Assembly: GCF_020382885.2 (NCBI RefSeq)
Contig: NC_058495.1
Span: 2,535,627-2,599,626, forward strand
From: Scatophagus argus
Lineage: Eukaryota; Chordata; Actinopteri; Scatophagidae
Length of the DNA stretch: 64,000 nucleotides
Reading direction: 5' to 3'
This document shows, piece by piece, positions 23,080-62,146 of the stretch. The notes beneath the pieces are model-generated. The model made no database searches. It saw nothing but the letters and a program-made list of their open reading frames with translations, and was not told the DNA's origin. The position numbers were made by a program, and so were the translations under genes. Each line of letters opens with the position of its first letter. Position 1 is the stretch's first letter.

Positions 23080-23582
23080 ATGGCACCTACTATCACTGCA
23101 GCAATGACCAATTCTCAGGAGCATCTGACTCTGAACCACAAGGTAAACTGAAGATTCAAGAAGGTTTCAGTTTGGTTCATGACATGTTGTCTTTGTTCAT
23201 GCTGACACTTTCCTCCTGAATAAGTTTGTTCATGACTTTGTTCTTCCTTCTGCAGCTCAGAAAGCCTCTGGTGGAGAAGTTACGCAGGGAGCGAATCAAC
23301 AGCAGCATTGAGCAGCTCAAGTCTCTGCTGGCTCCAGAGTTCCTCAAACAGCAGCCAGACTCCAAGCTGGAGAAAGCAGACATCCTGGAGATGACAGTTT
23401 GTGTCCTGCAACGACTGCAGCATCAACAGCAGAGAAGACTGATGAAGAACTTCAGCAAGCTGCAGTCTTCCTCTGAGAAACACCTGACAGATGCTGACTT
23501 CTCTCTTCTGAGCTCCATAGTCCACATCAGCATCACCAAAGACAAGAGTCCAGTCAGCAGCGCCCCCTGGAGGCCGTGGTAG
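23080..23582 (+). CDS. her4-like: Her4/Hes5-like bHLH-WRPW repressor, array copy 1
   Basis: Exons 23080-23142 and 23256-23582 (intron 113 nt, donor AAG|GTAAAC, acceptor TTCTGCAG|CTC) give 129 aa. Exon 1 encodes 21 residues ending LTLNHK. Exon 2 starts LRKPLVEKLRRERINSSIEQ, the basic region and helix 1 with the Hes-type proline, then a loop (EFLKQQPDSKLEK) and helix 2 (ADILEMTVCVLQRLQ). The C-terminus is SAPWRPW, which in this family recruits Groucho/TLE. Between helix 2 and WRPW there are only about 50 residues (HQQQRRLMKNFSKLQSSSEK, HLTDADFSLL) and no Orange domain. Family members are Notch-induced nuclear repressors that bind N/E-box DNA. Unique here: SSIVHIS where the others have SSTVHIS; the 3'UTR lacks several hundred bases; poly(A) signal at 24135-24140. 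Confidence 0.92.
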
Positions 23583-23788
23583 ACACCTCCAGCCTGGAGT
23601 CTCATCAGAGATCAGATCATCAGATCATTTTGATCTAAAATCTTTATTGTCCTTTTTAAGGCTATTTTGTCCTCATGGACTTCTCCTCACATTATGTGAT
23701 TATTGAACTTTGATCAGTTTTTAGATCAATATGTTTCTCCTTTTACTTTAAAAGGTCTGTTTAATGTCACACTGTCACAGTTTTCCAG

Positions 23789-23861
23789 TGACAATGTCAT
23801 TTCTATAGAAATGACATTGTCAGCTCATTCTCAACATGTATACATGTTGAGAATGAGCTGA
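23789..23861 (+). repeat. Two adjacent perfect palindromes in the 3'UTR of copy 1
   Basis: 23789-23822 is a 34-bp perfect palindrome (tgacaatgtcatttcta and its complement). 23820-23861 is a 42-bp perfect palindrome centred at 23840/23841. The other eight copies have only one pass (ttctacatgttgag) at this place. Confidence 0.9.
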
Positions 23862-24330
23862 ATTCAGTGCTTATTAAGAACAATGTGACCTGATTTCAGG
23901 TCAGTTTAACTATTTTTCCTTCTGTTCACTGTGTGCAAATGTTTTGCTATGTTTTCTAATCAAAAAGTGCTGTGTCCTCAAATGTTGTAAATGCTTTGTC
24001 TTTTATAAAGACAGCTGTTCCTTTACTCTGTCAGAGTACAGTGTGTCTTGTAGAAATCTACAAGTTGTTGTTGTGATGTACCATCACCTCTAGTTGGAGC
24101 TGACTTACTTGATGTGGCTCATTGTGCCTTGATGAATAAACAAACTGTGACAGCTGAAAATGTTCTGTCCTCATGTCGTTGTCATTGTCATGTCATTGTC
24201 ATGGCTTCTATCTTGATTAAAATGAAACAGATACTTATTTCACTTCATTGATTAAGAGTCCTACATTTGATTGACAAAAGACAACTTACCTCTTTGTTAA
24301 CAGGTAATTGTATTTATTTCTATTAAATTT

Positions 24331-24700
24331 CCATCCATCCATCCATTTTCTATACCGCTTATCCGTCAGGGTCGCGGGGGAGCTGGAGCCTATCCCAGCT
24401 GACTACGGGCGAGAGGCGGGGTTCACCCTGGACTGGTCGCCAGTCAATCGCAGGGCCAACACACAAAGACAGACAACCACACACTCTCACACTCACACCT
24501 AGGGGCAATTTAGAGTAGCCAATTAACCTAATGTGCATGTTTTTGGTATTGTGGGAGGAAGCCGGAGTACCCGGAGAAAACCCACGCAGGCACAGGGAGA
24601 ACATGCAAACTCCACATAGAAGGGCCCAGACCGGGGATTCGAACCTGGAACCCTCTTGCTATGAGGCGACAGTGCTAACCACTGCACCACTGTGCCGCCC
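24331..24700 (-). mobile_element. Complete tRNA-derived SINE downstream of copy 1
   Basis: The 11-bp direct repeat ctattaaattt flanks it (24320-24330 and 24701-24711). On the minus strand the head has gtggtgcagtggttagcact and the B-box-like GGTTCGAATCCC, followed by the SINE body and a GGATGGATGGAT tail. The matching outer flank of copy 9 (63180-63400) lacks it, so the insertion came after that flank was duplicated. Confidence 0.85.
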
Positions 24701-24834
24701 CTATTAAATTTATTTATATCGTAATCCTAATCGTAAACCTAAATCACAACAAAAGTTCTGAACGTTCTAAACAGTGCAGACCTACATGATAGGACAGAAA
24801 GAAATTTGTGACAGCAATTACAGAGAACTATAGG

Positions 24835-24868
24835 CAATAATAATAATAATGATATGTGCCATAATAAC

Positions 24869-24907
<39 letters not shown>

Positions 24908-24908
24908 G
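24835..24908. repeat. (ATAATG/ATAATA)n microsatellite
   Basis: The counterpart at 63350-63401 is a purer (AATAAT)n tract, as expected for homologous flanks with unequal repeat growth. Confidence 0.85.
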
Positions 24909-24954
24909 TGTACAAGGGGAGAGGTGGAGGATGAGAGAGAATCACAGCATTTGT

Positions 24955-26200
24955 TTTGAGATCCCCCGCAGCCTAAGCTGGGGGCTTCTAGGCCAATCCT
25001 AAATATAAGCTTTATCAAAAAGGAAGGTCTACTCTTAAACTTAGAGAGGGTGTCTTCCTCCTCAGCCAAAACTAAAAGATAACTCCACAAGAGTGGAGCT
25101 TCATAACTAATGTCTCCCGTTTTGGGGACTCTAGGAACCATAAGCAACCCTGCATTCTGGGAACATAGAGTTCTAGTTGACTGTGAGCTCTTTAAGATAT
25201 GATGGTGGACAGGCAGTGTAGAGAAGCCAATTGACCTGTGCTGTCTCTGTGCTATGGTGAGCTTTAAAACCAGACTGGAAATCCTCAAACAAATTATTGC
25301 TACATAGAAAGTCACGTAGCCAAGTCACGTAGCCAGTCGCCCAAAAGCAGTCGGGCGACCGCTTTCTTGGAGCGAAATGGAAGATTTGGGATTGGTCTAT
25401 AGTTGCCCAAAACCTTTGGATCAAGAGTAGGAGAGGTCTGATTACAGCTCCTTTAAGTACTTTTATGAGAGACAGATTGATCATATCTGGTAGGGAAGTG
25501 CTATGTCAAACGTCTTTGAGCACCTTCGTTGGGATGGGGTCAAAGAGAGAACATGTTGTTGGTGTAGATGAGGACATCAATGAGTTTATTTGGTGAAGGT
25601 CAATGCGCGAAATGAAGTGTAGGGAATTATCCAGTCCTACACCTGTTTCTACAGCCTGAAGATAGATCCTTGCCAGTTGAGGTCAGGAGCTGATGAATTT
25701 TGTCTCTAAATGTGAATGTGAATGTGAATTTGTAAATTTCATCCAACTAAGGTCATAAAGTCATTGCTACTGAGGGTATTAGGAACACAAGGCTCAATCG
25801 CGCTATGGCTCCCTGTCAGCTGGGCTACAGTGCTGAACAGAAACCTGGGGTTGTTCTCATTTTCCTCAATTAATGTTGAGCAATAGGCTGCTCTGGCAGT
25901 TCATCGGGCCTTCCTATGTGATTTAAGACTATCTTACCAGATCAGTCGTGATTCTTTGATGGAACGTCATTTCCTTTGAAGTTTGTGTGAGTTTTGCTTA
26001 AATTTGGAGATCTGCGAATTATATCATGGGGCTAATTTCTGTTGCTTTATAGATTTCTTTTTGAGGTGGACAATAGAGTCGAATGTCATTCTCAGTGAGC
26101 TTGCAGCACTGTCAACAAAATCATCAATTTGAGAGTGATAATGTTACTTAAGGTTTTGATGAAGAGAGATGATCAATATCAATAATGACTTCAGGGGACA
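24955..26200 (-). repeat. Composite dispersed fish repeats between copies 1 and 2
   Basis: Text such as 'ctttaagatatgatggtgga', 'gaaacctggggttgttctca' and 'gagtcgaatgtcattctcag' is of the type repeated widely in teleost genomes. No intact frame was found. Ends and family are unresolved. Confidence 0.5.
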
Positions 26201-26549
26201 AAATGGGATAATAATCTCAGAATAAGATGTTCTACCCTAATTTTCAGACCTTGACCCAGTACACAAATGTGAAATTTTAGCATTTTACAAGATTAATTAA
26301 TAATTTCTGTCTTCAAATTCTAGCAGTTCTTTCCATGTATCACTTAAGTCATTTGGTTCAAATGGATAAAATCAAGTCATTAAAATAAAATATATATATA
26401 TATAATTCAAAGACAATTAGCTGTTCCATCTTTTTGATATAATTGTCATTTTCAAGTGTATGTAATGTAAAACATTTGAAGTTAAACATTATTCTCTTTC
26501 ATGAGGTCACACATAGTTTTTGACGCTCCTTTTTAATGTCAGGCTAATC

Positions 26550-26614
26550 AGGTCAAAGGTCTGGATCTATTGTCCCACAAGGCTCTGTGACTGACTTTGC
26601 TCTGGTTTCCCACA
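26550..26614. promoter_or_regulatory. Stranded DR1 + CSL module between copies 1 and 2
   Basis: AGGTCA-A-AGGTCT (26550-26562) and TTCCCACA (26607-26614), with conserved text between (ctggatctattgtcccac). Elsewhere this module lies far upstream of a gene. Here it sits between two converging 3' ends, so it marks a lost or rearranged unit. Confidence 0.55.
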
Positions 26615-26746
26615 CTATGTACTTTCATAAAGAGTGGAGCTAATCTTGAAAATTAGAATTCAAATGTGTGATAACAATAAAGAACTGTATCAATGAAATG
26701 ACAAATAATTAACAAATTAAGAATGGAAAATGTCTGTTTCATCATG

Positions 26747-27092
26747 GGGCGGCACGTGGTGCAGTGGTTAGCACTGTCACCTCATAGCAAGAGGGTTCCA
26801 GGTTTGAATCCCGGTCTGGGCCCTTCTATGTGGAGTTTGCATGTTCTCCCTGTGCCTGCGTGGGTTTTCTCCCACAATACCAAAAACATGCACATTAGGT
26901 TCATTGGCTACTCTAAATTGCCCCTAGGTGTGACTGTGAGGGTGTGTGGTTGTTTGTCTTTGTGTGTTGGCCCTGCGATTGACTGGCGACCAGTCCAGGG
27001 TGAACCCCGCCTCTCGCCCGTAGTCAGCTGGGATAGGCTCCAGCTCCCCCACGACCCTGACGGAAAAGCGGTATAGAAAATGGATGGATGGA
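26747..27092 (+). mobile_element. Complete tRNA-derived SINE
   Basis: A 12-bp direct repeat (tgtttcatcatg) flanks it at 26735-26746 and 27093-27104. Head ggcacgtggtgcagtggtta, B-box-like GGTTTGAATCCC, tail (GGAT)3. Same family as the copy at 24331, opposite orientation. Confidence 0.85.
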
Positions 27093-28253
27093 TGTTTCAT
27101 CATGATCAGGCACTTGAAAATAGCAAAAATTTTAACTTGATTTGTCCATAAAATGTAGAAACAATGATGGCGGCCTCTACCAATGAAATGAAAAAATCTC
27201 AGGTTCATCACAGTCAAGATGGTAGCCATGACAACAATGACATGAGGACAGAACATTTTCAGCTGTCACAGTTTGTTTATTCATCAAGGCACAATGAGCC
27301 ACATCAAGTAAGTCAGCTCCAACTAGAGGTGATGGTACATCACAACAACAACTTGTAGATTTCTACAAGACACACTGTACTCTGACAGAGTAAAGGAACA
27401 GCTGTCTTTATAAAAGACAAAGCATTTACAACATTTGAGGACACAGCACTTTTTGATTAGAAAACATAGCAAAACATTTGCACACAGTGAACAGAAGGAA
27501 AAATAGTTAAACTGACCTGAAATCAGGTCACATTGTTCTTAATAAGCACTGAATTCAGCTCATTCTCAACATGTAGAAATGACATTGTCACTGGAAAACT
27601 GTGACAGTGTGACATTAAACAGACCTTTTAAAGTAAAAGGAGAAACATATTGATCTAAAAACAGATCAAAGTTCAATAATCACATAATGTGAGGAGAAGT
27701 CCATGAGGACAAAATAGCCTTAAAAAGGACAATAAAGATTTTAGATCAAAATGATCATAAAAGTATAAAAGTATCACAGGAAAATTGTGACATAAGAACA
27801 TCATTCAAAAAAAGATAAACATTTGGATCTTACAACAGATCAGTTCTGACCAATCAGTGACATTTAAATAAGAGAAATGCCATAGTGACCAAAGGTCCAT
27901 AAAAAGACAGTTAAAGTTGTTGATCACAACCATCAATAACAATCAAAAGATAGCAAATGTTACCATAGCAGGTACCACCAATACATGAAGTACACTGAGG
28001 TATAATAAGAATTGCTGATGCAATCAGATTTGGTTCATGCAACATGCATGACAAGATGTTCTCTTTCTTAACTTGAAAGATATTGTTGCTGTCATTTCCT
28101 CAGGAAATGTCATCTTGGACAGAGAAAAACACACACAAAATACAAGCTTCTGTACATACAGAAGAACAAGTCCATCAGATTTCAAAGAGTTCAGTCCAGT
28201 CATCTTTGTTTCACAACTGACTTTTTCCAGGAGAGACTCCAGGCTGGAGGTGT

Positions 28254-28756
28254 CTACCACGGCCTCCAGGGGGCGCTGCTGACTGGACTCTTGTCTTTGG
28301 TGATGCTGATGTGGACTGTGGAGCTCAGAAGAGAGAAGTCAGCATCTGTCAGGTGTTTCTCAGAGGAAGACTGCAGCTTGCTGAAGTTCTTCATCAGTCT
28401 TCTCTGCTGTTGATGCTGCAGTCGTTGCAGGACACAAACTGTCATCTCCAGGATGTCTGCTTTCTCCAGCTTGGAGTCTGGCTGCTGTTTGAGGAACTCT
28501 GGAGCCAGCAGAGACTTGAGCTGCTCAATGCTGCTGTTGATTCGCTCCCTGCGTAACTTCTCCACCAGAGGCTTTCTGAGCTGCAGAAGGAAGAACAAAG
28601 TCATGAACAAACTTATTCAGGAGGAAAGTGTCAGCATGAACAAAGACAACATGTCATGAACCAAACTGAAACCTTCTTGAATCTTCAGTTTACCTTGTGG
28701 TTCAGAGTCAGATGCTCCTGAGAATTGGTCATTGCTGCAGTGATAGTAGGTGCCAT
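28254..28756 (-). CDS. her4-like: Her4/Hes5-like bHLH-WRPW repressor, array copy 2
   Basis: Exon 1 is 28694-28756 and exon 2 is 28254-28580 on the minus strand. It carries the consensus protein shared by copies 5-9 and converges on copy 1. Its 3'UTR is full length, with the poly(A) signal (TTTATT on +) at 27276-27281. The start is fixed by the first ATG after TATA and by identity of exon 1 in all copies. Upstream CSL-type sites lie at 29041, 29388, 29778 and 30983. Confidence 0.92.
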
Positions 28757-28822
28757 GGGTGGATCTCTGTGCTGTAGAGGTCTCTGCAGAGAGAATCTGC
28801 TCTGTGCTGGCTTCATCCCTCC

Positions 28823-29048
28823 TATTTATAGTCCCACATCTGCATATGAATGTGTGGGTCTTGGTCTGACTGGAGTTTCTCACAGTCTCAGCCAATCACA
28901 GAGCCTGGTGAGACAATCAGGCATGTGGAGCAGCAGTATGTTGAAGTGTGTGATGGCCTGGGGGACAATGGTTAGATCTCAGGGGAACAGGTGGAGGACT
29001 GGGGGGGTGATGGAGAGAAGCTCACAGAGCTCTGTGTGAATGTGGGAA
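28823..29048 (-). promoter_or_regulatory. Core promoter of copy 2 (version 1)
   Basis: TATA at 28823-28830, CSL-like TTCTCACA at 28877-28884 and CSL TGTGGGAA at 29041-29048; 226 bp, as in copies 1, 3 and 5. Just upstream, 'gactgtgactgtgaactttt' shows a small deletion relative to copies 7-9. Confidence 0.75.
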
Positions 29049-29324
29049 AGTGGTGACCCTGTAGAGAGAGCAGATCTGCTGCCTGATGCTGGGATCAATG
29101 ACTGTGACTGTGAACTTTTTTTGCTTTTTGTCTCAGGCTTTAAATATAGTTGATGAAATCATTTTAATTTAACTCAATCATTTAAGAAGTTCATTTTCTT
29201 TCATCAGCTTCATAATTATTTTTCAGTTTTCCAAAATCAAAAATACAGTGTGACATGTCAGAGAACAGTGTGATGCCCATTGAGGCACTTCAAATAACGT
29301 CAGCACAATAATCATGTAGCTGTC

Positions 29325-29494
29325 CAGATGTAGCAGAGTCTTTGACACGTGCCTTGTAGTCAGTGTGAGTAACAAGTAGAGCTCAGTTTCCCACACTGAC
29401 TCCCTGTATGGTCAATGAACCACAAAGGGACTTCAGTGGCAGATGCTGGCTGTGTGTTGTTATAGAGACAGATCATGACATCATCAGCCATCTG
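29325..29494 (-). promoter_or_regulatory. Enhancer core of copy 2 (version beta)
   Basis: CAGATG 29325-29330, CACGTG 29346-29351, CSL TTCCCACA 29388-29395, CATCTG 29489-29494. The beta version has 'ctgagctctacttgttactc' next to the CSL site (gene-strand reading) and a CACGTG box, a possible Her/Hes binding site. Confidence 0.55.
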
Positions 29495-30925
29495 GAGGGA
29501 ACAGACACGATTGGCTGATTCTGACACTTTGTTAAAGTTGGAATTTTACCAAATCATGTCATCTCATATCCTCAGTTTCTAACCACTGTAAGACAATTTG
29601 AACCCTGCAGTGATGATCATGTCTCATTACTGACCATCAACTACATGGAAATATCAGATGAGGGTGGGAGGTTTCCTGGAGACAGCTGTTTCCTGAAGTG
29701 TGCCAAATCCCCTTAGAGAATTATTTGGCTGCTGGTGGGACGGATGTCGTTCACACTCAAGTCTGCCCTCCAAAGTTTTCCCACACTCCATCCATTAGCA
29801 GAAAACAGGCATGTGGCCCTCTACAAATGGACTCTTTGGGAATACTCTATACAAGCAGTGTGTGTTGTCAAGGCAGAGGGTTTGGGCCCCCAGAGAAAAA
29901 CTTAACCATCAACATGAGAAATGGGTTCTTAAGAGATTTGTGAAAATTAATATGTAACATTGCACACCAAGAAATAATTAATTCATCAAGAAATTCTAAA
30001 ATATTACTGCTGTGTGCTGGGTAAGACTTTGAACATCAAGGTGGAATGTCTAATAGCATTTTGTGTACTCAAGAAGACTTTGGATAAAGAAAGTCTATCC
30101 ATCCCAAGGCTACACACTGCACAGCACACACAGTGTGATTTTGGCCAAACCAGAACCTGCACTTTGGTAGATGTCACGCTTGATACCAGTAAAATGAGAA
30201 GGGACCTCAGGAACCCTCTGAGGAAGAGACTTTCATGAGTCCCTTGGTTACACCTTCCCAGTATACCAATATGGATGATCCACCCCTACTCTTGTTCTGA
30301 TGGGTTATAACTTTCCACGCTCTCCAAGATTTTGCTAAATGCTGAAAAATCATTCAATAAGAGCAAGGCCTGCGCACAGTTGATGCCTGATGACTGTCTT
30401 TTTGCTGTGGTATTGAAAATGGGAAAGAATCCATGTTGACATGTCATTATGTATATAAGTATATAACATAATGCGGCCTATTGAATATGGAAACAGGAAA
30501 ACACACGAGTCAGTGAAATAACTGACTGATGGGATGACACACAGACAGAAAGCCAGTAAAACTACTGATTCTTGGATTTGTCATGTTTAACATGTTCTGA
30601 CATCCTGTTAGTGCTGAATGTAACAAAGCGTTAAAAAATATCACAAAACATCAACTCCAGGTTGCACTGTTATTAACATTATCACAGATGTGTTGGTATG
30701 TGTTCAGTGACTTCTTCTGTACCAACAATGAGTGCTGCTTGTTAGCTAAAAGAAAGAAAAAAATTGATGCAGGGGGGGAGGAAGAGGTTCCCCCCTTTTT
30801 GCTGTGGTATCAAAAGAGTTGTAGAGTATCTTTTTCAATATTAGTATTGTATCAAAATGTAAAATTCTTTGATCATGACAAGCGTACATGGACCAGTCAG
30901 GCTCCTTTTCAATGTGAGGTTCCTC

Positions 30926-30990
30926 AGGTCAAAGGTCTGGATCTATTGTCCCACAGGGCTCTGTGAGTGACTTTCCTCTGGTTTCCCACA
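30926..30990 (-). promoter_or_regulatory. DR1 + CSL module upstream of copy 2
   Basis: AGGTCA-A-AGGTCT (30926-30938) and TTCCCACA (30983-30990), 44 nt apart. The DR1 pattern is that of RXR/HNF4/PPAR-type nuclear receptors. Binding is inferred. Confidence 0.5.
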
Positions 30991-32432: not shown

Positions 32433-32935
32433 CTACCACGGCCTCCAGGGGGCGCTGCTTACTGGACTCTTGTCTTTGGTGATGCTGATGTGGACTGTGG
32501 AGCTCAGAAGAGAGAAGTCAGCATCTGTCAGGTGTTTCTCAGAGGAAGACTGCAGCTTGCTGAAGTTCTTCATCAGTCTTCTCTGCTGTTGATGCTGCAG
32601 TCGTTGCAGGACACAAACTGTCATCTCCAGGATGTCTGCTTTCTCCAGCTTGGAGTCTGGCTGCTGTTTGAGGAACTCTGGAGCCAGCAGAGACTTGAGC
32701 TGCTCAATGCTGCTGTTGATTCGCTCCCTGCGTAACTTCTCCACCACAGGCTTTCTGAGCTGCAGAAGGAAGAACAAAGTCATGAACAAACTTATTCAGG
32801 AGGAAAGTGTCAGCATGAACAAAGACAACATGTCATGAACCAAACTGAAACCTTCTTGAATCTTCAGTTTACCTTGTGGTTCAGAGTCAGATGCTCCTGA
32901 GAATTGGTCATTGCTGCAGTGATAGTAGGTGCCAT
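32433..32935 (-). CDS. her4-like: Her4/Hes5-like bHLH-WRPW repressor, array copy 3
   Basis: Exon 1 32873-32935, exon 2 32433-32759. It differs from the consensus by RKPVVEK for RKPLVEK in the basic region (a valine also found in mammalian Hes5) and by silent changes such as V = GTA near the C-terminus. Poly(A) signal at 31455-31460. The spacing to copy 2 is 4179 bp. Confidence 0.92.
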
Positions 32936-33001
32936 GGGTGGATCTCTGTGCTGTAGAGGTCTCTGCAGAGAGAATCTGCTCTGTGCTGGCTTCATCCCTC
33001 C

Positions 33002-38876: not shown

Positions 38877-39376
38877 CTACGGCCTCCAGGGGGCGCTGCT
38901 GACTGGACTCTTGTCTTTGGTGATGCTGATGTGGACTGTGGAGCTCAGAAGAGAGAAGTCAGCATCTGTCAGGTGTTTCTCAGAGGAAGACTGCAGCTTG
39001 CTGAAGTTCTTCATCAGTCTTCTCTGCTGTTGATGCTGCAGTCGTTGCAGGACACAAACTGTCATCTCCAGGATGTCTGCTTTCTCCAGCTTGGAGTCTG
39101 GCTGCTGTTTGAGGAACTCTGGAGCCAGCAGAGACTTGAGCTGCTCAATGCTGCTGTTGATTCGCTCCCTGCGTAACTTCTCCACCAGAGGCTTTCTGAG
39201 CTGCAGAAGGAAGAACAAAGTCATGAACAAACTTATTCAGGAGGAAAGTGTCAGCATGAACAAAGACAACATGTCATGAACCAAACTGAAACCTTCTTGA
39301 ATCTTCAGTTTACCTTGTGGTTCAGAGTCAGATGCTCCTGAGCATTGGTCATTGCTGCAGTGATAGTAGGTGCCAT
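38877..39376 (-). CDS. her4-like: Her4/Hes5-like bHLH protein, array copy 4, C-terminal WRPW cut to WRP
   Basis: Exon 1 39314-39376, exon 2 38877-39200. The last TGG is TAG, so the protein ends SSAPWRP and is 128 aa. WRPW is the Groucho/TLE-binding tail, and loss of its last tryptophan is expected to weaken or abolish co-repressor recruitment, leaving a bHLH that might act as a dimer poison. It also carries MTNAQEHL for MTNSQEHL in exon 1. The rest of the frame, splice sites, promoter and poly(A) signal (37897-37902) are intact, so it could still be expressed. Confidence 0.88.
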
Positions 39377-42801: not shown

Positions 42802-43304
42802 CTACCACGGCCTCCAGGGGGCGCTGCTGACTGGACTCTTGTCTTTGGTGATGCTGATGTGGACTGTGGAGCTCAGAAGAGAGAAGTCAGCATCTGTCAG
42901 GTGTTTCTCAGAGGAAGACTGCAGCTTGCTGAAGTTCTTCATCAGTCTTCTCTGCTGTTGATGCTGCAGTCGTTGCAGGACACAAACTGTCATCTCCAGG
43001 ATGTCTGCTTTCTCCAGCTTGGAGTCTGGCTGCTGTTTGAGGAACTCTGGAGCCAGCAGAGACTTGAGCTGCTCAATGCTGCTGTTGATTCGCTCCCTGC
43101 GTAACTTCTCCACCAGAGGCTTTCTGAGCTGCAGAAGGAAGAACAAAGTCATGAACAAACTTATTCAGGAGGAAAGTGTCAGCATGAACAAAGACAACAT
43201 GTCATGAGCCAAACTGAAACCTTCTTGAATCTTCAGTTTACCTTGTGGTTCAGAGTCAGATGCTCCTGAGAATTGGTCATTGCTGCAGTGATAGTAGGTG
43301 CCAT
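42802..43304 (-). CDS. her4-like: Her4/Hes5-like bHLH-WRPW repressor, array copy 5
   Basis: Exon 1 43242-43304, exon 2 42802-43128, consensus protein. Poly(A) signal at 41821-41826. The coding part is intact, but its proximal CSL site is altered (see promoter), so its Notch response may differ from its sisters'. Confidence 0.92.
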
Positions 43305-46585: not shown

Positions 46586-48157
46586 CACTCACTGGCCACT
46601 TTATTAGGCACACCTGTCCAACTGCTCGTTAACGCAAATTTCTAATCAACCAATCACATGGTAGCAACTCAATGCATTTAGGCATGTAGACATGGTCAAG
46701 ACGATCTGCTGCGGTTCATACTGTGGCCAGGTGGGTTGTTTCCTCCCCACCGCTGTATGGCGCTGTCCCACGGTTCCAGTGTGCTGATTGTGGGGCGGCC
46801 CCGCAGCTATTTAAGCCGGCAGGTGGCTGCGCTTTCCCTCTCTTCTTCCTCCTTGTGCGGCGGTGGCCTGCAGCAGTAGCTGTGGTGAACGTGGGTGCCG
46901 TGGTGCTCCGGTATCCAGCGTGCGTTGTGGCGGCGTGTATGCGGTGGGGCTGTCGTGTCCTCTTGCCTGGGCCCGCCTGCGGTGTTGGCACGCGGTGGTT
47001 GTGACGGGGGTGGCTCACCCACCGTTAGCGTGGCCTCCTTTCCCTCCCCTTTTTATCGGTGCACCGGGTAGGGGCTGCTGTTCTGGTGGCGCTGCCACAA
47101 TACCGCGCATCAAAATGGGGAAGAAAGGTTATTTAAGTGACTTTGAACATGGCATGGTTGTTGGTGCCAGAAGGGCTGGTCTGAGTATTTCAGAAAGTGC
47201 TGATCTACTGGGATTTTCACGCACAGCCGAAAAAGAGAAAATATCCAGTGTGCGGCAGTTCTGTGGGCGAAAATAACTTGTTGATGCCAGAGGTCAGAGG
47301 AGAACGGCCAGACTGGTTCGAGCTGATAGAAAGGCGACAGTAACTCAAATAACCACTTGTTACAACCAAGGTATGCAGAAGAGCATCTCTGAACGCACAA
47401 CACGTCGAACCTTGAGGCAGATGGGCTACAGCAGCAGATGACCACACCAGGTGCCACTTCTGTCAGCTAAGAACAGGAAACTGAGGCTACAATTCGCACA
47501 GGCTCACCGAATTTGGACAACAGAAGACTGGAAAAACGTTGCCTGGTCTGATGAGTTTTGATTTCTGCTGCAACATTCGGATGGTAGGGTCAGAATTTGG
47601 CGTCAACAACGTGAAAGCATAGATCCATCCGGGCTTGTATCAACGGTTCAGGCTGGTGGTGGTGTAATGGTGTGGGGGATATTTTCTTGGCACCCTTTGG
47701 GCCCCTTAGTACCAATTGAGCATCGTTGCAACGCCACAGCCTACCTGAGTATTGTTGCTGACCATGTCCATCCCTTTATGACCACAGTGTACCCATCTTC
47801 TGATGGCTGCTTCCAGCAGGATAACGCGCCATGTCATAAAGCGAGATTAATCTCAGACTGGTTTCTTGAACATGACAATGAGTTCACTGTACTCAAATGG
47901 ACTCCACAGTCACCAGATCTCAATCCAATAGAGCACCTTTGGGATGTGGTGGAAAGGGAGATTTGCATCATGGATGTACAGCCGACAAATCTGCAGCAAC
48001 TGCGTGATGTTATCATATCAATATGGACCAAATTCTTTGAGGAATGTTTCCAGTACCTTGTTGAATCTATGCCACGAAGGGGTAAGGCAGATCTGAAGGC
48101 AAAAGGGAGTCCAGCTCGGTACTAGCAAGGTGTACCTAATAAAGTGGCAAGTGAGTG
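46586..48157 (+). mobile_element. Tc1-like DNA transposon, inactive
   Basis: Inverted ends cactcactggccactttatt and aataaagtggcaagtgagtg, flanked by TA (46584-46585 and 48158-48159). The matching empty site is agatatatttg at about 37008. Transposase pieces: MGKKGYLSDFEHGMVVGARR (DNA-binding start, 47115), WSDEF near 47547 (first catalytic Asp), CFQQDNAPCHKA (second Asp), SPDLNPIEHLWDVVERE (catalytic Glu). In-frame stops near 47274 and 47560 and a shifted frame mean no full transposase. A solo LTR is inserted near its 5' end. Confidence 0.9.
46722..47099. mobile_element. GC-rich solo LTR nested in the Tc1-like element (fossil)
   Basis: Ends TGTGGC...GCCACA are perfectly inverted, flanked by the 4-bp direct repeat ATAC (46718-46721 and 47100-47103). 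A TATA-like ctatttaagcc lies near 46807. It is much richer in G+C than its surroundings. Tc1 sequence resumes on the far side (cgcgcatcaaaatgg). Family not assigned. Confidence 0.7.
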
Positions 48158-49867: not shown

Positions 49868-50370
49868 CTACCACGGCCTCCAGGGGGCGCTGCTGACTGG
49901 ACTCTTGTCTTTGGTGATGCTGATGTGGACTGTGGAGCTCAGAAGAGAGAAGTCAGCATCTGTCAGGTGTTTCTCAGAGGAAGACTGCAGCTTGCTGAAG
50001 TTCTTCATCAGTCTTCTCTGCTGTTGATGCTGCAGTCGTTGCAGGACACAAACTGTCATCTCCAGGATGTCTGCTTTCTCCAGCTTGGAGTCTGGCTGCT
50101 GTTTGAGGAACTCTGGAGCCAGCAGAGACTTGAGCTGCTCAATGCTGCTGTTGATTCGCTCCCTGCGTAACTTCTCCACCAGAGGCTTTCTGAGCTGCAG
50201 AAGGAAGAACAAAGTCATGAACAAACTTACTCAGGAGGAAAGTGTCAGCATGAACAAAGACAACATGTCATGAACCAAACTGAAACCTTCTTGAATCTTC
50301 AGTTTACCTTGTGGTTCAGAGTCAGATGCTCCTGAGAATTGGTCATTGCTGCAGTGATAGTAGGTGCCAT
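49868..50370 (-). CDS. her4-like: Her4/Hes5-like bHLH-WRPW repressor, array copy 6
   Basis: Exon 1 50308-50370, exon 2 49868-50194, consensus protein. Poly(A) signal at 48891-48896. It is the last of the minus-strand run and lies head to head with copy 7; about 2.7 kb separates the two ATGs, so the two genes share one intergenic regulatory interval. Confidence 0.92.
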
Positions 50371-52281: not shown

Positions 52282-52451
52282 CAGATGGCTGATGATGTCA
52301 TGATCTGTCTCTATAACAACACACAGCCAGCATCTGCCACTGAAGTCCCTTTGTGGTTCATTGACCATACAGGGAGTCAGTGTGGGAAACTGAGCTCTAC
52401 TTGTTACTCACACTGACTACAAGGCACGTGTCAAAGACTCTGCTACATCTG
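52282..52451 (+). promoter_or_regulatory. Enhancer core of copy 7 (version beta)
   Basis: CAGATG 52282-52287, CSL TGTGGGAA 52381-52388, CACGTG 52425-52430, CATCTG 52446-52451. A further CSL site lies at 51954-51961. Confidence 0.55.
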
Positions 52452-52825
52452 GACAGCTACATGATTATTGTGCTGACGTTATTTGAAGTGCCTCAATGGG
52501 CATCACACTGTTCTCTGACATGTCACACTGTATTTTTGATTTTGGAAAACTGAAAAATAATTATGAAGCTGATGAAAGAAAATGAACTTCTTAAATGATT
52601 GAGTTAAATTAAAATGATTTCGCCAACTATATTTAAAGCCTGAGACAAAAAGCAAAGAAAGTTCCAGTTAAGTTTTTGTATTTATTGCGATCATACATGT
52701 AATTTATGCATTACACACAAATGTTATTCCCTCGTGTGTGTGATGTGATGCTGAGCGTGTGCTCAGTCACAGTCATTGATCCCAGCATCAGGCAGCAGAT
52801 CTGCTCTCTCTACAGGGTCACCACT

Positions 52826-53043
52826 TTCCCACATTCACACAGAGCTCTGTGAGCTTCTCTCCATCACCCCCCCAGTCCTCCACCTGTTCCCCTGAGATCT
52901 AACCATTGTGCCCCAGGCCATCACACACTTCACACTGCGGTATCCTCTATTGTCTCACCAAGCTCTGTGATTGGCTGAGACTGTGAGAAACTCCAGTCAG
53001 ACCAAGACCCACACATTCATATGGAGATGTGGGGCTATAAATA
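52826..53043 (+). promoter_or_regulatory. Core promoter of copy 7 (version 2)
   Basis: CSL TTCCCACA 52826-52833, TGTGAGAA 52982-52989, TATAAATA 53036-53043. Confidence 0.75.
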
Positions 53044-53109
53044 GGAGGGATGAAGCCAGCACAGAGCAGATTCTCTCTGCAGAGACCTCTACAGCACAGA
53101 GATCCACCC

Positions 53110-53612
53110 ATGGCACCTACTATCACTGCAGCAATGACCAATTCTCAGGAACATCTGACTCTGAACCACAAGGTAAACTGAAGATTCAAGAAGGTTTCAG
53201 TTTGGTTCATGACATGTTGTCTTTGTTCATGCTGACACTTTCCTCCTGAATAAGTTTGTTCATGACTTTGTTCTTCCTTCTGCAGCTCAGAAAGCCTCTG
53301 GTGGAGAAGTTACGCAGGGAGCGAATCAACAGCAGCATTGAGCAGCTCAAGTCTCTGCTGGCTCCAGAGTTCCTCAAACAGCAGCCAGACTCCAAGCTGG
53401 AGAAAGCAGACATCCTGGAGATGACAGTTTGTGTCCTGCAACGACTGCAGCATCAACAGCAGAGAAGACTGATGAAGAACTTCAGCAAGCTGCAGTCTTC
53501 CTCTGAGAAACACCTGACAGATGCTGACTTCTCTCTTCTGAGCTCCACAGTCCACATCAGCATCACCAAAGACAAGAGTCCAGTCAGCAGCGCCCCCTGG
53601 AGGCCGTGGTAG
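53110..53612 (+). CDS. her4-like: Her4/Hes5-like bHLH-WRPW repressor, array copy 7
   Basis: Exon 1 53110-53172, exon 2 53286-53612, consensus protein (one silent change in exon 1, GAA for GAG). First gene of the right-hand plus-strand arm. Poly(A) signal at 54584-54589. Confidence 0.92.
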
Positions 53613-55052
53613 ACACCTCCAGCCTGGAGTCTCTCCTGGAAAAAGTCAGTTGTGAAACAAAGATGACTGGACTGAACTCTTTGAAATCTGATGGACCTGT
53701 TCTTCTGTATGTACAGAAGCTTGTATTTTGTGTGTGTTTTTCTCTGTCAAGATGACATTTCCTGAGGAAATGACAGCAACAATATCTTTCAAGTTAAGAA
53801 AGAGAACATCTTGTCATGCATGTTGCATGAACCAAATCTGATTGCATCAGCAATTCTTATTATACCTCAGTGTACTTCATGTATTGGTGGTACCTGCTAT
53901 GGTAACATTTGTTATCTTTTGATTGTTATTGATGGTTGTGATTAACAACTTTAACTGTCTTTTTATGGACCTTTGGTCACTATGGCATTTCTCTTATTTA
54001 AATGTCACTGATTGGTCAGAACTGATCTGTTGTAAGATCCAAATGTTTATCTTTTTTTGAATGATGTTCTTATGTCACAATTTTCCTGTGATACTTTTAT
54101 ACTTTTATGATCATTTTGATCTAAAATCTTTATTGTCCTTTTTAAGGCTATTTTGTCCTCATGGACTTCTCCTCACATTATGTGATTATTGAACTTTGAT
54201 CTGTTTTTAGATCAATATGTTTCTCCTTTTACTTTAAAAGGTCTGTTTAATGTCACACTGTCACAGTTTTCCAGTGACAATGTCATTTCTACATGTTGAG
54301 AATGAGCTGAATTCAGTGCTTATTAAGAACAATGTGACCTGATTTCAGGTCAGTTTAACTATTTTTCCTTCTGTTCACTGTGTGCAAATGTTTTGCTATG
54401 TTTTCTAATCAAAAAGTGCTGTGTCCTCAAATGTTGTAAATGCTTTGTCTTTTATAAAGACAGCTGTTCCTTTACTCTGTCAGAGTACAGTGTGTCTTGT
54501 AGAAATCTACAAGTTGTTGTTGTGATGTACCATCACCTCTAGTTGGAGCTGACTTACTTGATGTGGCTCATTGTGCCTTGATGAATAAACAAACTGTGAC
54601 AGCTGAAAATGTTCTGTCCTCATGTCATTGTTGTCATGGCTACCATCTTGACTGTGATGAACCTGAGATTTTTTCATTTCATTGATAGAGACCTCCATCA
54701 TTGTTTCTACATTTGATGGACAAATCAAGTTAAAATTTAGCACATACAGCAAAAGCCTGTTGAGACTCACTCTAAGCAGAACATATTTCAACCTGCTTAA
54801 TTTAAGACTTTTGATATTAGGTCACCCTGTTTATATGGAATAAGCCAAGTCCACAAACCAAAAGGAGACACTTTCCAGTTCAAAGACCAGGAGCTGCAGC
54901 ATCTTGGTGGTGTTGCAGTCAGTTTTTGGTGTCTCAGTGTAAAAAGTTTAAAATCATTAGAATAATTTCACTCTTTGAGGAGGTCACACCTTGTTTCCTA
55001 AGTGATGCATAACAACACACACTTCTATTGTCTGTCCAGTGAAAGGACAGAG

Positions 55053-55117
55053 TGTGGGAAACCAGAGGAAAGTCACTCACAGAGCCCTGTGGGACAATAG
55101 ATCCAGACCTTTGACCT
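55053..55117 (+). promoter_or_regulatory. DR1 + CSL module upstream of copy 8
   Basis: TGTGGGAA (55053-55060) and the inverted DR1 AGACCT-T-TGACCT (55105-55117). Confidence 0.5.
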
Positions 55118-56549
55118 GAGGAACCTCACATTGAAAAGGAGCCTGACTGGTCCATGTACGCTTGTCATGATCAAAGAATTTTACATTTTGATACAATACT
55201 AATATTGAAAAAGATACTCTACAACTCTTTTGATACCACAGCAAAAAGGGGGGAACCTCTTCTGCACCCACCTGCATCAATTTTTTTCTTTCTTTTAACT
55301 AACAACCAGCACTCATTGTTGGTACAGAAGAAGTCACTGAACACATACCAACACATCTGTGATAATGTTAATAACAGTGCAACCTGGAGTTGAGGTTTAA
55401 TGATATTTTTTAACGCTTTGTTACATTCAGCACTAACAGGATGTCAGAACATGTTAAACATGACAAATCCAAGAATCAGTAGTTTTACTGGCTTTCTGTC
55501 TGTGTGTCATCCCATCAGTCAGTTATTTCACTGACCCGTGTGTTTTCCTGTTTCCATATTCAATAGGCCACATTATGTTATATACTTATATACATAATGA
55601 CATGTCAACATGGATTCTTTCCCAATTTCAATACCAGAGCAAAAAGACAGTCATCAGGCATCAACTGTGCGCAGGCCTTGCTCTTATTGAATGATTTTTC
55701 AGCATTTATCAAACGCTTGGATAGCGTGGAAAGTTATAACCCATCAGAACAAGAGTAGGGGTGGATCATCCATATTGGTATACTGGGAAGGTGTAACCAA
55801 GGGACTCATGAAAGTCTCTTCCTCAGAGGGTTCCTGAGGTCCCTTCTCATTTTACTGGTATCAAGCGTGACATCTACCAAAGTGCAAGTTCTGATTAGGC
55901 CAAAATCACACTGTGTGTGCTGTGCAGTGTGTAGCCTTGGGATGGATAGACTTTCTTTATCCAAAGTCTTCTTGAGTACACAAAATGCTATTAGACATTC
56001 CACCTTGATGTTCAAAGTCTTACCCAGCACACAGCAGTAATATTTTAGAATTTCTTGATGAATTAATTATTTCTTGGTGTGCAATGTTACATATTAATTT
56101 TCACAAATCTCTTAAGAACCCATTTCTCATGTTGATGGTTAAGTTTTTCTCTGGGGGCCCAAACCCTCTGCCTTGACAACACACACTGCTTGTATAGAGT
56201 ATTCCCAAAGAGTCCATTTGTAGAGGGCCACATGCCTGTTTTCTGCTAATGGATGGAGTGTGGGAAAACTTTGGAGGGCAGACTTGAGTGTGAACGACAT
56301 CCGTCCCACCAGCAGCCAAATAATTCTCTAAGGGGATTTGGCACACTTCAGGAAACAGCTGTCTCCAGGAAACCTCCCACCCTCATCTCATATTTCCATG
56401 TAGTTGATGGTCAGTAATGAGACATGATCATCACTGCAGGGTTCAAATTGTCTTACAGTGGTTAGAAACTGAGGATATGAGATGATATGATTTGGTAAAA
56501 TTCCAACTTTAACAAAGTGTCAGAATCAGCCAATCGTGTCTGTTCCCTC

Positions 56550-56719
56550 CAGATGGCTGATGATGTCATGATCTGTCTCTATAACAACACACAGCCAGCA
56601 TCTGCCACTGAAGTCCCTTTGTGGTTCATTGACCATACAGGGAGTCAGTGTGGGAAACTGAGCTCTACTTGTTACTCACACTGACTACAAGGCACGTGTC
56701 AAAGACTCTGCTACATCTG
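56550..56719 (+). promoter_or_regulatory. Enhancer core of copy 8 (version beta)
   Basis: CAGATG 56550-56555, CSL TGTGGGAA near 56649, CATCTG 56714-56719. Confidence 0.55.
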
Positions 56720-57090
56720 GACAGCTACATGATTATTGTGCTGACGTTATTTGAAGTGCCTCAATGGGCATCACACTGTTCTCTCACATGTCACACTGTA
56801 TTTTTGATTTTGGAAAACTGAAAAATAATTATGAAGCTGAAAGAAAATGAACTTCTTCAATGATTGAGTTAAATTAAAATGATTTCATCAACTATATTTA
56901 AAGCCTGAGACAAAAAGCAAAGAAAGTTCCAGTTAAGTTTTTGTATTTATTGCGATCATACATGTAATTTATGCATTACACACAAATGTTATTCCCTCGT
57001 GTGTGTGATGTGATGCTGAGCGTGTGCTCAGTCACAGTCATTGATCCCAGCATCAGGCAGCAGATCTGCTCTCTCTACAGGGTCACCACT

Positions 57091-57308
57091 TTCCCACATT
57101 CACACAGAGCTCTGTGAGCTTCTCTCCATCACCCCCCCAGTCCTCCACCTGTTCCCCTGAGATCTAACCATTGTGCCCCGGGCCATCACACACTTCACGC
57201 TGCGGTATCCTCTATTGTCTCACCAAGCTCTGTGATTGGCTGAGACTGTGAGAAACTCCAGTCAGACCAAGACCCACACATTCATATGCAGATGTGGGAC
57301 TATAAATA
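57091..57308 (+). promoter_or_regulatory. Core promoter of copy 8 (version 2)
   Basis: CSL TTCCCACA 57091-57098 and TATAAATA 57301-57308. Confidence 0.75.
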
Positions 57309-57374
57309 GGAGGGATGAAGCCAGCACAGAGCAGATTCTCTCTGCAGAGACCTCTACAGCACAGAGATCCACCC

Positions 57375-57877
57375 ATGGCACCTACTATCACTGCAGCAAT
57401 GACCAATTCTCAGGAGCATCTGACTCTGAACCACAAGGTAAACTGAAGATTCAAGAAGGTTTCAGTTTGGTTCATGACATGTTGTCTTTGTTCATGCTGA
57501 CACTTTCCTCCTGAGTAAGTTTGTTCATGACTTTGTTCTTCCTTCTGCAGCTCAGAAAGCCTCTGGTGGAGAAGTTACGCAGGGAGCGAATCAACAGCAG
57601 CATTGAGCAGCTCAAGTCTCTGCTGGCTCCAGAGTTCCTCAAACAGCAGCCAGACTCCAAGCTGGAGAAAGCAGACATCCTGGAGATGACAGTTTGTGTC
57701 CTGCAACGACTGCAGCATCAACAGCAGAGAAGACTGATGAAGAACTTCAGCAAGCTGCAGTCTTCCTCTGAGAAACACCTGACAGATGCTGACTTCTCTC
57801 TTCTGAGCTCCACAGTCCACATCAGCATCACCAAAGACAAGAGTCCAGTCAGCAGCGCCCCCTGGAGGCCGTGGTAG
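57375..57877 (+). CDS. her4-like: Her4/Hes5-like bHLH-WRPW repressor, array copy 8
   Basis: Exon 1 57375-57437, exon 2 57551-57877, consensus protein. The start-to-start distance is 4265 bp from copy 7 and 4269 bp to copy 9, so these are the most regular and probably youngest units. Poly(A) signal at 58850-58855. Confidence 0.92.
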
Positions 57878-59318
57878 ACACCTCCAGCCTGGAGTCTCTC
57901 CTGGAAAAAGTCAGTTGTGAAACAAAGATGACTGGACTGAACTCTTTGAAATCTGATGGACTTGTTCTTCTGTATGTACAGAAGCTTGTATTTTGTGTGT
58001 GTTTTTCTCGGTCCAAGATGATATTTCCTGAGGAAATGACAGCAACAATATCTTTCAAGTTAAGAAAGAGAACATCTTGTCATGCATGTTGCATGAACCA
58101 AATCTGATTGCATCAGCAATTCTTATTATACCTCAGTGTACTTCATGTATTGGTGGTACCTGCTATGGTAACATTTGCTATCTTTTGATTGTTATTGATG
58201 GTTGTGATCAACAACTTTAACTGTCTTTTTATGGACCTTTGGTCACTATGGCATTTCTCTTATTTAAATGTCACTGATTGGTCAGAACTGATCTGTTGTA
58301 AGATCCAAATGTTTATCTTTTTTTGAATGATGTTCTTATGTCACAATTTTCCTGTGATACTTTTATACTTTTATGATCATTTTGATCTAAAATCTTTATT
58401 GTCCTTTTTAGGGCTATTTTGTCCTCATGGACTTCTCCTCACATTATGTGATTATTGAACTTTGATCTGTTTTTAGATCAATATGTTTCTCCTTTTACTT
58501 TAAAAGGTCTGTTTAATGTCACACTGTCACAGTTTTCCAGTGACAATGTCATTTCTACATGTTGAGAATGAGCTGAATTCAGTGCTTATTAAGAACAATG
58601 TGACCTGATTTCAGGTCAGTTTAACTATTTTTCCTTCTGTTCACTGTGTGCAAATGTTTTGCTATGTTTTCTAATCAAAAAGTGCTGTGTCCTCAAATGT
58701 TGTAAATGCTTTGTCTTTTATAAAGACAGCTGTTCCTTTACTCTGTCAGAGTACAGTGTGTCTTGTAGAAATCTACAAGTTGTTGTTGTGATGTACCATC
58801 ACCTCTAGTTGGAGCTGACTTACTTGATGTGGCTCATTGTGCCTTGATGAATAAACAAACTGTGACAGCTGAAAATGTTCTGTCCTCATGTCATTGTTGT
58901 CATGGCTACCATCTTGACTGTGATGAACCTGAGATTTTTTCATTTCATTGGTAGAGACCTCCATCATTGTTTCTACATTTTATGGACAAATCAAGTTAAA
59001 ATTTAGCACATACAGCAAAAGTCTGTTGAGACTCACTCTAAGCAGAACATATTTCAACCTGCTTAATTTAAGACTTTTGATATTAGGTCACCCTGTTTAT
59101 ATGGAATAAGCCAAGTCCACAAACCAAAAGGAGACACTTTCCAGTTCAAAGACCAGGAGCTGCAGCATCTTGGTGGTGTTGCAGTCAGTTTTTGGTGTCT
59201 CAGTGTAAAAAGTTTAAAATCATTAGAATAATTTCACTCTTTGAGGAGGTCACACCTTGTTTCCTAAGTGATGCATAACAACACACACTTCTATTGTCTG
59301 TCCAGTGAAAGGACAGAG

Positions 59319-59383
59319 TGTGGGAAACCAGAGGAAAGTCACTCACAGAGCCCTGTGGGACAATAGATCCAGACCTTTGACCT
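59319..59383 (+). promoter_or_regulatory. DR1 + CSL module upstream of copy 9
   Basis: TGTGGGAA (59319-59326) and AGACCT-T-TGACCT (59371-59383). Confidence 0.5.
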
Positions 59384-60815
59384 GAGGAACCTCACATTGA
59401 AAAGGAGCCTGACTGGTCCATGTACGCTTGTCATGATCAAAGAATTTTACATTTTGATACAATACTAATATTGAAAAAGATACTCTACAACTCTTTTGAT
59501 ACCACAGCAAAAAGGGGGGAACCTCTTCCTCACCCACCTGCATCATTTTTTTTCTTTCTTTTAACTAACAACCAGCACTCATTGTTGGTACAGAAGAAGT
59601 CACTGAACACATACCAACACATCTGTGATAATGTTAATAACAGTGCAACCTGGAGTTGAGGTTTAATGATATTTTTTAACGCTTTGTTACATTCAGCACT
59701 AACAGGATGTCAGAACATGTTAAACATGACAAATCCAAGAATCAGTAGTTTTACTGGCTTTCTGTCTGTGTGTCATCCCATCAGTCAGTTATTTCACTGA
59801 CTCGTGTGTTTTCCTGTTTCCATATTCAATAGGCCACATTATGTTATATACTTATATACATAATGACATGTCAACATGGATTCTTTCCCAATTTCAATAC
59901 CAGAGCAAAAAGACAGTCATCAGGCATCAACTGTGCGCAGGCCTTGCTCTTATTGAATGATTTTTCAGCATTTATCAAACGCTTGGAGAGCGTGGAAAGT
60001 TATAACCCATCAGAACAAGAGTAGGGGTGGATCATCCATATTGGTATACTGGGAAGGTGTAACCAAGGGACTCATGAAAGTCTCTTCCTCAGAGGGTTCC
60101 TGAGGTCCCTTCTCATTTTTCTGGTATCAAGCGTGACATCTACCAAAGTGCAGGTTCTGATTAGGCCAAAATCACACTGTGTGTGCTGTGCAGTGTGTAG
60201 CCTTGGGATGGATAGACTTTCTTTATCCAAAGTCTTCTTGAGTACACAAAATGCTATTAGACATTCCACCTTGATGTTCAAAGTCTTACCCAGCACACAG
60301 CAGTAATATTTTAGCATTTCTTGATGAATTAATTATTTCTTGGTGTGCAATGTTACATATTAATTTTCACAAATCTCTTAAGAACCCATTTCTCATGTTG
60401 ATGGTTAAGTTTTTCTCTGGGGGCCCAAACCCTCTGCCTTGACAACACACACTGCTTGTATAGAGTATTCCCAAAGAGTCCATTTGTAGAGGGCCACATG
60501 CCTGTTTTCTGCTAATGGATGGAGTGTGGGAAAACTTTGGAGGGCAGACTTGAGTGTGAACGACATCCGTCCCACCAGCAGCCAAATAATTCTCTAAGGG
60601 GATTTGGCACACTTCAGGAAACAGCTGTCTCCAGGAAACCTCCCACCCTCATCTGATATTTCCATGTAGTTGATGGTCAGTAATGAGACATGATCATCAC
60701 TGCAGGGTTCAAATTGTCTTACAGTGGTTAGAAACTGAGGATATGAGATGACATGATTTGGTAAAATTCCAACTTTAACAAAGTGTCAGAATCAGCCAAT
60801 CGTGTCTGTTCCCTC

Positions 60816-60985
60816 CAGATGGCTGATGATGTCATGATCTGTCTCTATAACAACACACAGCCAGCATCTGCCACTGAAGTCCCTTTGTGGTTCATTGACC
60901 ATACAGGGAGTCAGTGTGGGAAACTGAGCTCTACTTGTTACTCACACTGACTACAAGGCACGTGTCAAAGACTCTGCTACATCTG
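60816..60985 (+). promoter_or_regulatory. Enhancer core of copy 9 (version beta)
   Basis: CAGATG 60816-60821, a CSL TGTGGGAA near 60916, CATCTG 60980-60985. Confidence 0.55.
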
Positions 60986-61359
60986 GACAGCTACATGATT
61001 ATTGTGCTGACGTTATTTGAAGTGCCTCAATGGGCATCACACTGTTCTCTGACATGTCACACTGTATTTTTGATTTTGGAAAACTGAAAAATAATTATGA
61101 AGCTGATGAAAGAAAATGAACTTCTTCAATGATTGAGTTAAATTAAAATGATTTCAATAAATATATTTAAATCCTGAGACAAAAAGCAAAGAAGGTTCCA
61201 GTTAAGTTTTTGTATTTATTGCGATCATACATGTAATTTATGCATTACACACAAATGTTATTCCCTCGTGTGTGTGATGTGATGCTGAGCGTGTGCTCAG
61301 TCACAGTCATTGATCCCAGCATCAGGCAGCAGATCTGCTCTCTCTACAGGGTCACCACT

Positions 61360-61577
61360 TTCCCACATTCACACAGAGCTCTGTGAGCTTCTCTCCATCA
61401 CCCCCCCAGTCCTCCACCTGTTCCCCTGAGATCTAACCATTGTCCCCCAGGCCATCACACACTTCATGCTGCGGTATCCTCTATTGTCTCACCAGGCTCT
61501 GTGATTGGCTGAGACTGTGAGAAACTCCAGTCAGACCAAGACCCACACATTCATATGCAGATGTGGGACTATAAATA
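61360..61577 (+). promoter_or_regulatory. Core promoter of copy 9 (version 2)
   Basis: CSL TTCCCACA 61360-61367 and TATAAATA 61570-61577. Confidence 0.75.
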
Positions 61578-61643
61578 GGAGGGATGAAGCCAGCACAGAG
61601 CAGATTCTCTCTGCAGAGACCTCTACAGCACAGAGATCCACCC

Positions 61644-62146
61644 ATGGCACCTACTATCACTGCAGCAATGACCAATTCTCAGGAGCATCTGACTCTGAAC
61701 CACAAGGTAAACTGAAGATTCAAGAAGGTTTCAGTTTGGTTCATGACATGTTGTCTTTGTTCATGCTGACACTTTCCTCCTGAGTAAGTTTGTTCATGAC
61801 TTTGTTCTTCCTTCTGCAGCTCAGAAAGCCTCTGGTGGAGAAGTTACGCAGGGAGCGAATCAACAGCAGCATTGAGCAGCTCAAGTCTCTGCTGGCTCCA
61901 GAGTTCCTCAAACAGCAGCCAGACTCCAAGCTGGAGAAAGCAGACATCCTGGAGATGACAGTTTGTGTCCTGCAACGACTGCAGCATCAACAGCAGAGAA
62001 GACTGATGAAGAACTTCAGCAAGCTGCAGTCTTCCTCTGAGAAACACCTGACAGATGCTGACTTCTCTCTTCTGAGCTCCACAGTCCACATCAGCATCAC
62101 CAAAGACAAGAGTCCAGTCAGCAGCGCCCCCTGGAGGCCATGGTAG
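61644..62146 (+). CDS. her4-like: Her4/Hes5-like bHLH-WRPW repressor, array copy 9
   Basis: Exon 1 61644-61706, exon 2 61820-62146, consensus protein; the WRPW proline codon is CCA instead of CCG. Poly(A) signal at 63119-63124, giving a 3'UTR of about 1 kb. Confidence 0.92.

Follow-up and report, generated by a model that had tools for sequence, protein, structure and literature searches.

We analysed a 64,000-nucleotide (nt) window of the Scatophagus argus genome (NC_058495.1, 2,535,627 to 2,599,626, forward strand), which carries an array of nine Her4/Hes5-like genes at 23080..62146, from the first ATG to the last stop. All nine copies are intact and have two exons: exon 1 (63 nt) is separated by a GT..AG intron of 113 nt from exon 2, which encodes the basic helix-loop-helix (bHLH) domain and the WRPW motif. 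Copies 1, 7, 8, and 9 lie on the forward strand and copies 2-6 on the reverse strand (four versus five). The nine reading frames are open, the basic region is intact in every protein, and six of the nine proteins are identical. Eight have 129 amino acids and copy 4 has 128; WRPW forms the C-terminus in eight. The span and these counts agree with an earlier note on this DNA, which had described nine such genes of 128-129 residues with bHLH in all and WRPW in eight. The array units are 0.4-4.1% apart (7-57 pairwise differences per unit over 1,398 to 1,870 aligned columns), and their flanks differ between copies. Larger duplicated blocks pair 31.3-35.6 kb with 41.7-45.9 kb and 37.7-40.4 kb with 48.7-51.4 kb. 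The window contains 0 N.

The array belongs with Hes5-type genes. In the basic region, RKPLVEK aligns to SKPIMEK of HES-1 (2mh3), with the Hes-type proline common to both. A bHLH tree of 11 short rows, three of them joined by hand over introns, grouped the array with Hes5-type sequences and split it from Hes1, Hes6, Hey, and L032 at a support of 0.97. Among the matches listed in a genome-wide search with the array protein, the best were Hes5-type loci; at this locus they comprised at least the nine copies, a tenth gene introduced below, and, weakly, a decayed fragment (E 0.49), the match counts of this search being lower bounds. The two coding exons, with the bHLH in one of them, fit the Hes5 pattern of many ray-finned fish, in which hes5 genes are described as having two coding exons (PMC8320183).

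The tenth intact gene, hereafter the sibling, is a single copy about 6 kb past the right window edge and about 8 kb from copy 9. Its protein of 162 amino acids has a Hairy_orange match at residues 90-123 (E 1.3e-4, 22.6 bits, slightly below the Pfam cut-off). In alignment with it, the array proteins are without residues 80-112, that is, 33 residues. Of the 34 Orange positions of the sibling, 23 are missing from the array, and the last 11 (QRRLMKNFSKL) directly abut helix 2 of the HLH. Since QRRLMKNFSKL is a homologue of the Orange C-terminus, the domain is truncated to its last third and not wholly absent. The earlier note had stated that the proteins lack an Orange domain; this holds for the 23 lost positions and for the Pfam scan described next, and fails for the 11 that remain. 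All nine copies have the identical junction.

In the Pfam scan that the earlier note had suggested, the HLH profile was significant in the array proteins (E ~8e-14; three copies scanned). Hairy_orange gave no match in these three copies (E<=1), nor in the protein of copy 7 after splicing, where the limit was E<=10. A hand-typed Her4-like protein, used as an informal control, scored Hairy_orange at E 3e-7 in the same scan. The cut-off of this profile is 25.3 bits, and four of five Hes5-type genes scanned from the genome fell below it, at 14-23 bits: the sibling at 22.6-22.9, C8:16.788M at 21.5, C3:27.078M at 14.5, and C3:27.084M at 14.1. For the fifth, C8:16.793M, Hairy_orange was not listed at E<=1. 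A genome-wide PF07527 search listed 14 matches, none of them in the window, at the sibling, or at these Hes5-type genes. Given that Orange domains of the Hes5 type score below the cut-off or not at all in this genome, a Pfam result by itself says little about Orange here, and the direct comparison with the Orange-bearing sibling is, at the level of sequence, the decisive evidence for the loss. Among the other Hes5-type genes (L030, L031, and L033 at G000:C3:27.078-27.084M; L027 and L028 at G000:C8:16.788-16.793M), four were scanned: the Pfam match reaches no further than the first half of Orange in L030 and in L033, is nearly full in L027, and is missing in L028. L030 and L031, which run in opposite directions, are almost identical.

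An [YF]SxC Orange core together with a final WRPW was present in all six Hes5-type genes picked for comparison (the sibling; C8:16.788M and 16.793M; C3:27.078M, 27.0815M, and 27.084M); the array has the WRPW without the core. We also considered a spliced exon that might supply the domain, which the earlier note had named as a finding that would overturn its reading. Scanning all six frames of the 64-kb window with a loose motif returned five matches, only one of which, at 17665 in the decayed fragment, is Orange-like in context, and two of the other four fall in array 3' flanks. A hidden Orange exon was therefore rejected. As the adjacent gene bears Orange, its loss from the array is genuine and not a failure of annotation.

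The likeness between array and sibling is mosaic. Over a 715-bp front comprising promoter, exon 1, intron, and bHLH, copies 4, 6, 7, 8, and 9 are 99.0-99.4% identical to the sibling (4-7 differences), and they differ among themselves by 1-8. Copies 1 and 2 match the sibling at 97.3% over 704-705 bp, and copies 3 and 5 at 96.6% over 656 bp. From about -305 to +342 no position separates the sibling from all nine copies; the first to do so is +343. The front block is followed by a 99-bp gap and then by a 156-bp tail, in which the copies are only 85.9-86.5% identical to the sibling (21/156 differences in five copies, 22/156 in four). The contrast between 4/715 front and 21/156 tail differences gave a Fisher p of 4e-13. 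Similarity of the tail to the sibling stops 5 bp past the stop codon, beyond which the alignment does not extend, and the 3' flanks of array and sibling were no more alike than chance (36/300 shuffles reached the score; shuffles here and below were of single bases and so a mild test). A simple recent deletion from the sibling was rejected as the whole origin of the array: it predicts ~99% identity in the tail and 3' flank as well.

Two promoter haplotypes, distinguished by clustered changes and by an insertion of 8 bp at 52932-52948 and equivalent positions, divide copies 1, 2, 3, and 5 from copies 4, 6, 7, 8, and 9, and the sibling carries that of copies 4 and 6-9. The array gene may have originated by a fusion at the CAG-rich junction, joining a sibling-type front to the back end of another her4 gene. 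Alternatively, an older Orange-deleted paralogue may repeatedly have received sibling-type fronts by gene conversion halting at the deletion. Continuing exchange seems favoured, because the sibling front nests within the array's own variation.

The decayed her4-type fragment upstream of the array retains an Orange segment and tail in a broken frame, and no bHLH was detected in it (17.6-17.9 kb). From Orange to tail it matches the sibling at 68.4% over 177 columns (E 3e-10), and none of 300 shuffles reached the score of its Orange segment. The 3' flank of the fragment resembles that of the array (score 95, shuffle maximum 80.5, 0/300), with no likeness to the sibling 3' flank beyond chance (130/300). 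As the fragment keeps both Orange and an array-like 3' flank, a gene with such a flank appears formerly to have had Orange. Tail identity was 86.1% for array/sibling, 79.6% for array/fragment, and 78.1% for sibling/fragment, values that do not make the array the fragment's closest relative.

Two CSL/RBPJ-like sites, putative targets of RBPJ, and a TATA box precede the genes. TTCCCACA is conserved in 8/9 copies, and TGTGAGAA and the TATA box are conserved in 9/9; both sites and the TATA box are also present in the sibling promoter. The window holds 50 CSL-like sites against 12.0 expected, an excess inflated by repeats. An AATAAA lies 972-976 nt past the stop in eight copies and at 553 nt in copy 1. 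A geneless 207-bp piece at 63437-63643 (+) shares 94% identity with the array 3' flank and is perhaps a remnant of a further unit.

Table 1. Positions of the array genes, the sibling, and associated features (window numbering unless a locus is given)
Feature	Position	Strand	Details
Copy 1	23080..23582	+	exon 1 23080-23142, intron 23143-23255, exon 2 23256-23582; 129 aa, WRPW end; T109I
Copy 2	28254..28756	-	exon 1 28756-28694, exon 2 28580-28254; 129 aa, WRPW
Copy 3	32433..32935	-	exon 1 32935-32873, exon 2 32759-32433; 129 aa, WRPW; L26V
Copy 4	38877..39376	-	exon 1 39376-39314, exon 2 39200-38877; 128 aa, WRP end; S12A
Copy 5	42802..43304	-	exon 1 43304-43242, exon 2 43128-42802; 129 aa, WRPW; distal CSL-like site lost
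Copy 6	49868..50370	-	exon 1 50370-50308, exon 2 50194-49868; 129 aa, WRPW
Copy 7	53110..53612	+	exon 1 53110-53172, intron 53173-53285, exon 2 53286-53612; 129 aa, WRPW; Orange junction ~53454-53460
Copy 8	57375..57877	+	exon 1 57375-57437, exon 2 57551-57877; 129 aa, WRPW
Copy 9	61644..62146	+	exon 1 61644-61706, exon 2 61820-62146; 129 aa, WRPW
Copy 7 promoter	52826..53041	+	CSL/RBPJ-like TTCCCACA at 52826, TGTGAGAA at 52982, TATAAA at 53036
Copy 7 front block	52746..53460	+	7/715 bp differ from L010:6832-7546; ends at Orange junction
Copy 7 tail block	53462..53617	+	last third of Orange to just past stop; 86.5% to L010:6576-6731
AATAAA of copy 7	54584..54589	+	972 nt past stop codon
Sibling	G000:C3:2605583-2606181 = L010:6584-7182	-	162 aa, exon 1 and bHLH as in array
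Decayed her4-type fragment	17625..17860	+	Orange segment and tail retained, frame broken

Other open reading frames (ORFs) in the window include retrotransposon ORFs at 18264-21233 (+), between the decayed fragment and copy 1, with Pfam matches to an endonuclease (18264-18857) and a reverse transcriptase (19785-20585). A transposase-like ORF with a DDE_3 match (Pfam) lies within the array at 47667-48125 (+). Two ORFs at 9967-12333 (+), perhaps exons of one gene, have no Pfam match at E<=1 and may serve as a synteny marker.

Taken as a whole, these features are probably best explained by the young amplification of an Orange-truncated Hes5/Her4-type gene with a sibling-like front, whose products would be Notch-driven core repressors. 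One Hes5/Her4-type gene would have been amplified recently, after its back end had lost 33 residues, and its front half would have been kept like the sibling's by gene conversion or by a founding fusion. Notch, acting via the RBPJ sites, would switch on the array genes together with the sibling. Through their identical bHLH, the array products would dimerise with one another and with the sibling; the array dimers would bind N-box type DNA, and WRPW would recruit Groucho/TLE. In Hes proteins, WRPW is reported to recruit Groucho co-repressors (PMC4172395, PMC3396596), and Orange is described as contributing to dimerisation and the selection of partners (PMC3125270, PMC8431614, PMC4466309). The outcome would be a high dose of core repressor, with Orange no longer governing the choice of partner. 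The array genes are thus likely to encode bHLH-WRPW repressors that are Notch driven, co-expressed with the Orange-bearing sibling, and able to pair with it, as predicted from their sequences. The Orange remnant fused to helix 2 may form a single long helix with it. In an AlphaFold2 model of exon 2, one helix (residues 37-73) spans helix 2 and the remnant, with a block-mean predicted local distance difference test (pLDDT) of 80-88 over residues 41-70. Alignment to MITF extended weakly (E 3e-4), and the hydrophobic residues after helix 2, read from the sequence, break a single heptad register of the leucine-zipper kind. A longer dimer helix is possible on this model.

Several results weigh against this proposal. 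The AlphaFold2 model is shallow (nine near-identical rows, mean pLDDT 68, predicted template modelling score 0.33), and a fold search with it returned nothing useful. In copy 4 the final Trp codon is TAG, so the protein stops at WRP. Across copies 2-9, variable sites are rarer in the coding sequence (6/390) than in the flanks (69/1,350; p 0.0016, a generous test because variable sites are clustered); the intron is equally uniform (2/113 sites variable), and because it matches the coding sequence, conversion rather than selection may explain the low coding diversity. The tail has a non-synonymous divergence (dN) from the sibling of 0.171 and a synonymous divergence (dS) of 0.135 over 50 codons, and with dN above dS, selective constraint downstream of the bHLH is not evident. 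On these comparisons, the evidence for constraint on the array genes is mixed.

Several of these results would suit a passive array, in which loss of Orange disabled or weakened the gene while segmental duplication and conversion from the working sibling spread intact fronts by chance, leaving little or no role. An excess of dN in the tail, an intron as uniform as the coding sequence, and the loss of the WRPW end in one copy speak for it, and units merely ~0.4-4.1% apart are too young to show decay. We nevertheless regard this account as rather unlikely: all nine frames are open, eight retain WRPW, the promoter sites persist in 8-9 of the nine copies, and the flanks vary ~3x as much as the coding sequence. 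A set of competitors or dominant negatives is a further candidate, whose Orange-less products would pair with the sibling or with other Her proteins and act by titrating these instead of repressing on their own. A bHLH and promoter identical to the sibling's make co-expression and dimerisation with it plausible, and Orange is reported to favour dimerisation among class E bHLH proteins (PMC8431614). With the basic region intact in all nine copies and WRPW in eight, however, the proteins should bind both DNA and Groucho, and we judge pure titration quite improbable from their sequences. That nine near-identical copies in mixed orientation were falsely duplicated from one gene, or that Orange was lost by misassembly, is highly improbable. 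The window is free of N, the copies have differing flanks and 7-57 pairwise differences per unit, and the junction is the same in all nine, yet the sibling ~8 kb from copy 9 was assembled with Orange.

A bolder extension of the amplification proposal is a two-part Notch effector locus of one full Her4 gene and nine Orange-truncated twins, whose common promoter and bHLH would be maintained by conversion ending at the deletion. Each Notch pulse would then yield full-length and Orange-less partners at the copy-number ratio, with a longer dimer helix and new partner rules. We consider it unlikely, and offer it as speculation.

The contribution of Orange to Hes repressors has usually been studied with artificial deletions. 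One example is Hey1 (PMC4466309). The present locus offers a natural matched set in one genome, in which the same promoter and bHLH occur with and without most of Orange, nine copies without to one with. It suggests that gene conversion keeps a module for control and binding alike across paralogues while their back ends diverge, which would be an uncomplicated way for new effector variants to arise.

The earlier note had regarded the amplified, Orange-less family as a new type of Notch effector. Comparison with the sibling confirms the existence of an amplified Her4-type family deficient in Orange, whereas the novelty of the type is not supported on comparison with known systems. Platynereis Hes10-13 are described as lacking Orange and retaining bHLH and WRPW, which is read as secondary loss, and in a metazoan survey in the same account about one in four predicted Hes sequences is without Orange (PMC4172395). 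Unlike the array, these are annelid proteins of at least 215 amino acids, and they are not known from that account to form a near-identical array or to have an Orange-bearing twin that shares promoter and bHLH (PMC4172395). Lineage-specific clusters of near-identical her4/HES5 copies are likewise reported, with five in zebrafish and nine in stickleback (PMC3396596). Zebrafish her4.1-her4.5, orthologues of hes5, resemble the array in being tandem, near-identical two-exon genes, and in zebrafish the cluster is reported to be Notch dependent (PMC3396596, PMC8320183, PMC10112928). Their proteins have 152 amino acids (PMC8320183) and are assigned to the bHLH-Orange family, in contrast to the 128-129 amino acids of the array, which is without two thirds of Orange and has nine copies instead of five. 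The two medaka her4 proteins are given as 145 and 166 amino acids (PMC8320183). The stickleback HES5 cluster, compared by description alone, matches the array in having nine lineage-specific copies in a teleost; trees built on bHLH and Orange suggest that Orange is present there (PMC3396596). A further close system is the sibling itself, which is like the array in promoter, exon 1, intron, and bHLH and unlike it in length, in its Orange domain, in being a single copy, and in its tail and 3' flank. In the literature listings searched, no Orange-truncated her4 array was found next to a twin that bears Orange and shares its front. Because Orange loss and her4 amplification are each already known, it is their combination, and not the components, that appears new at this locus.

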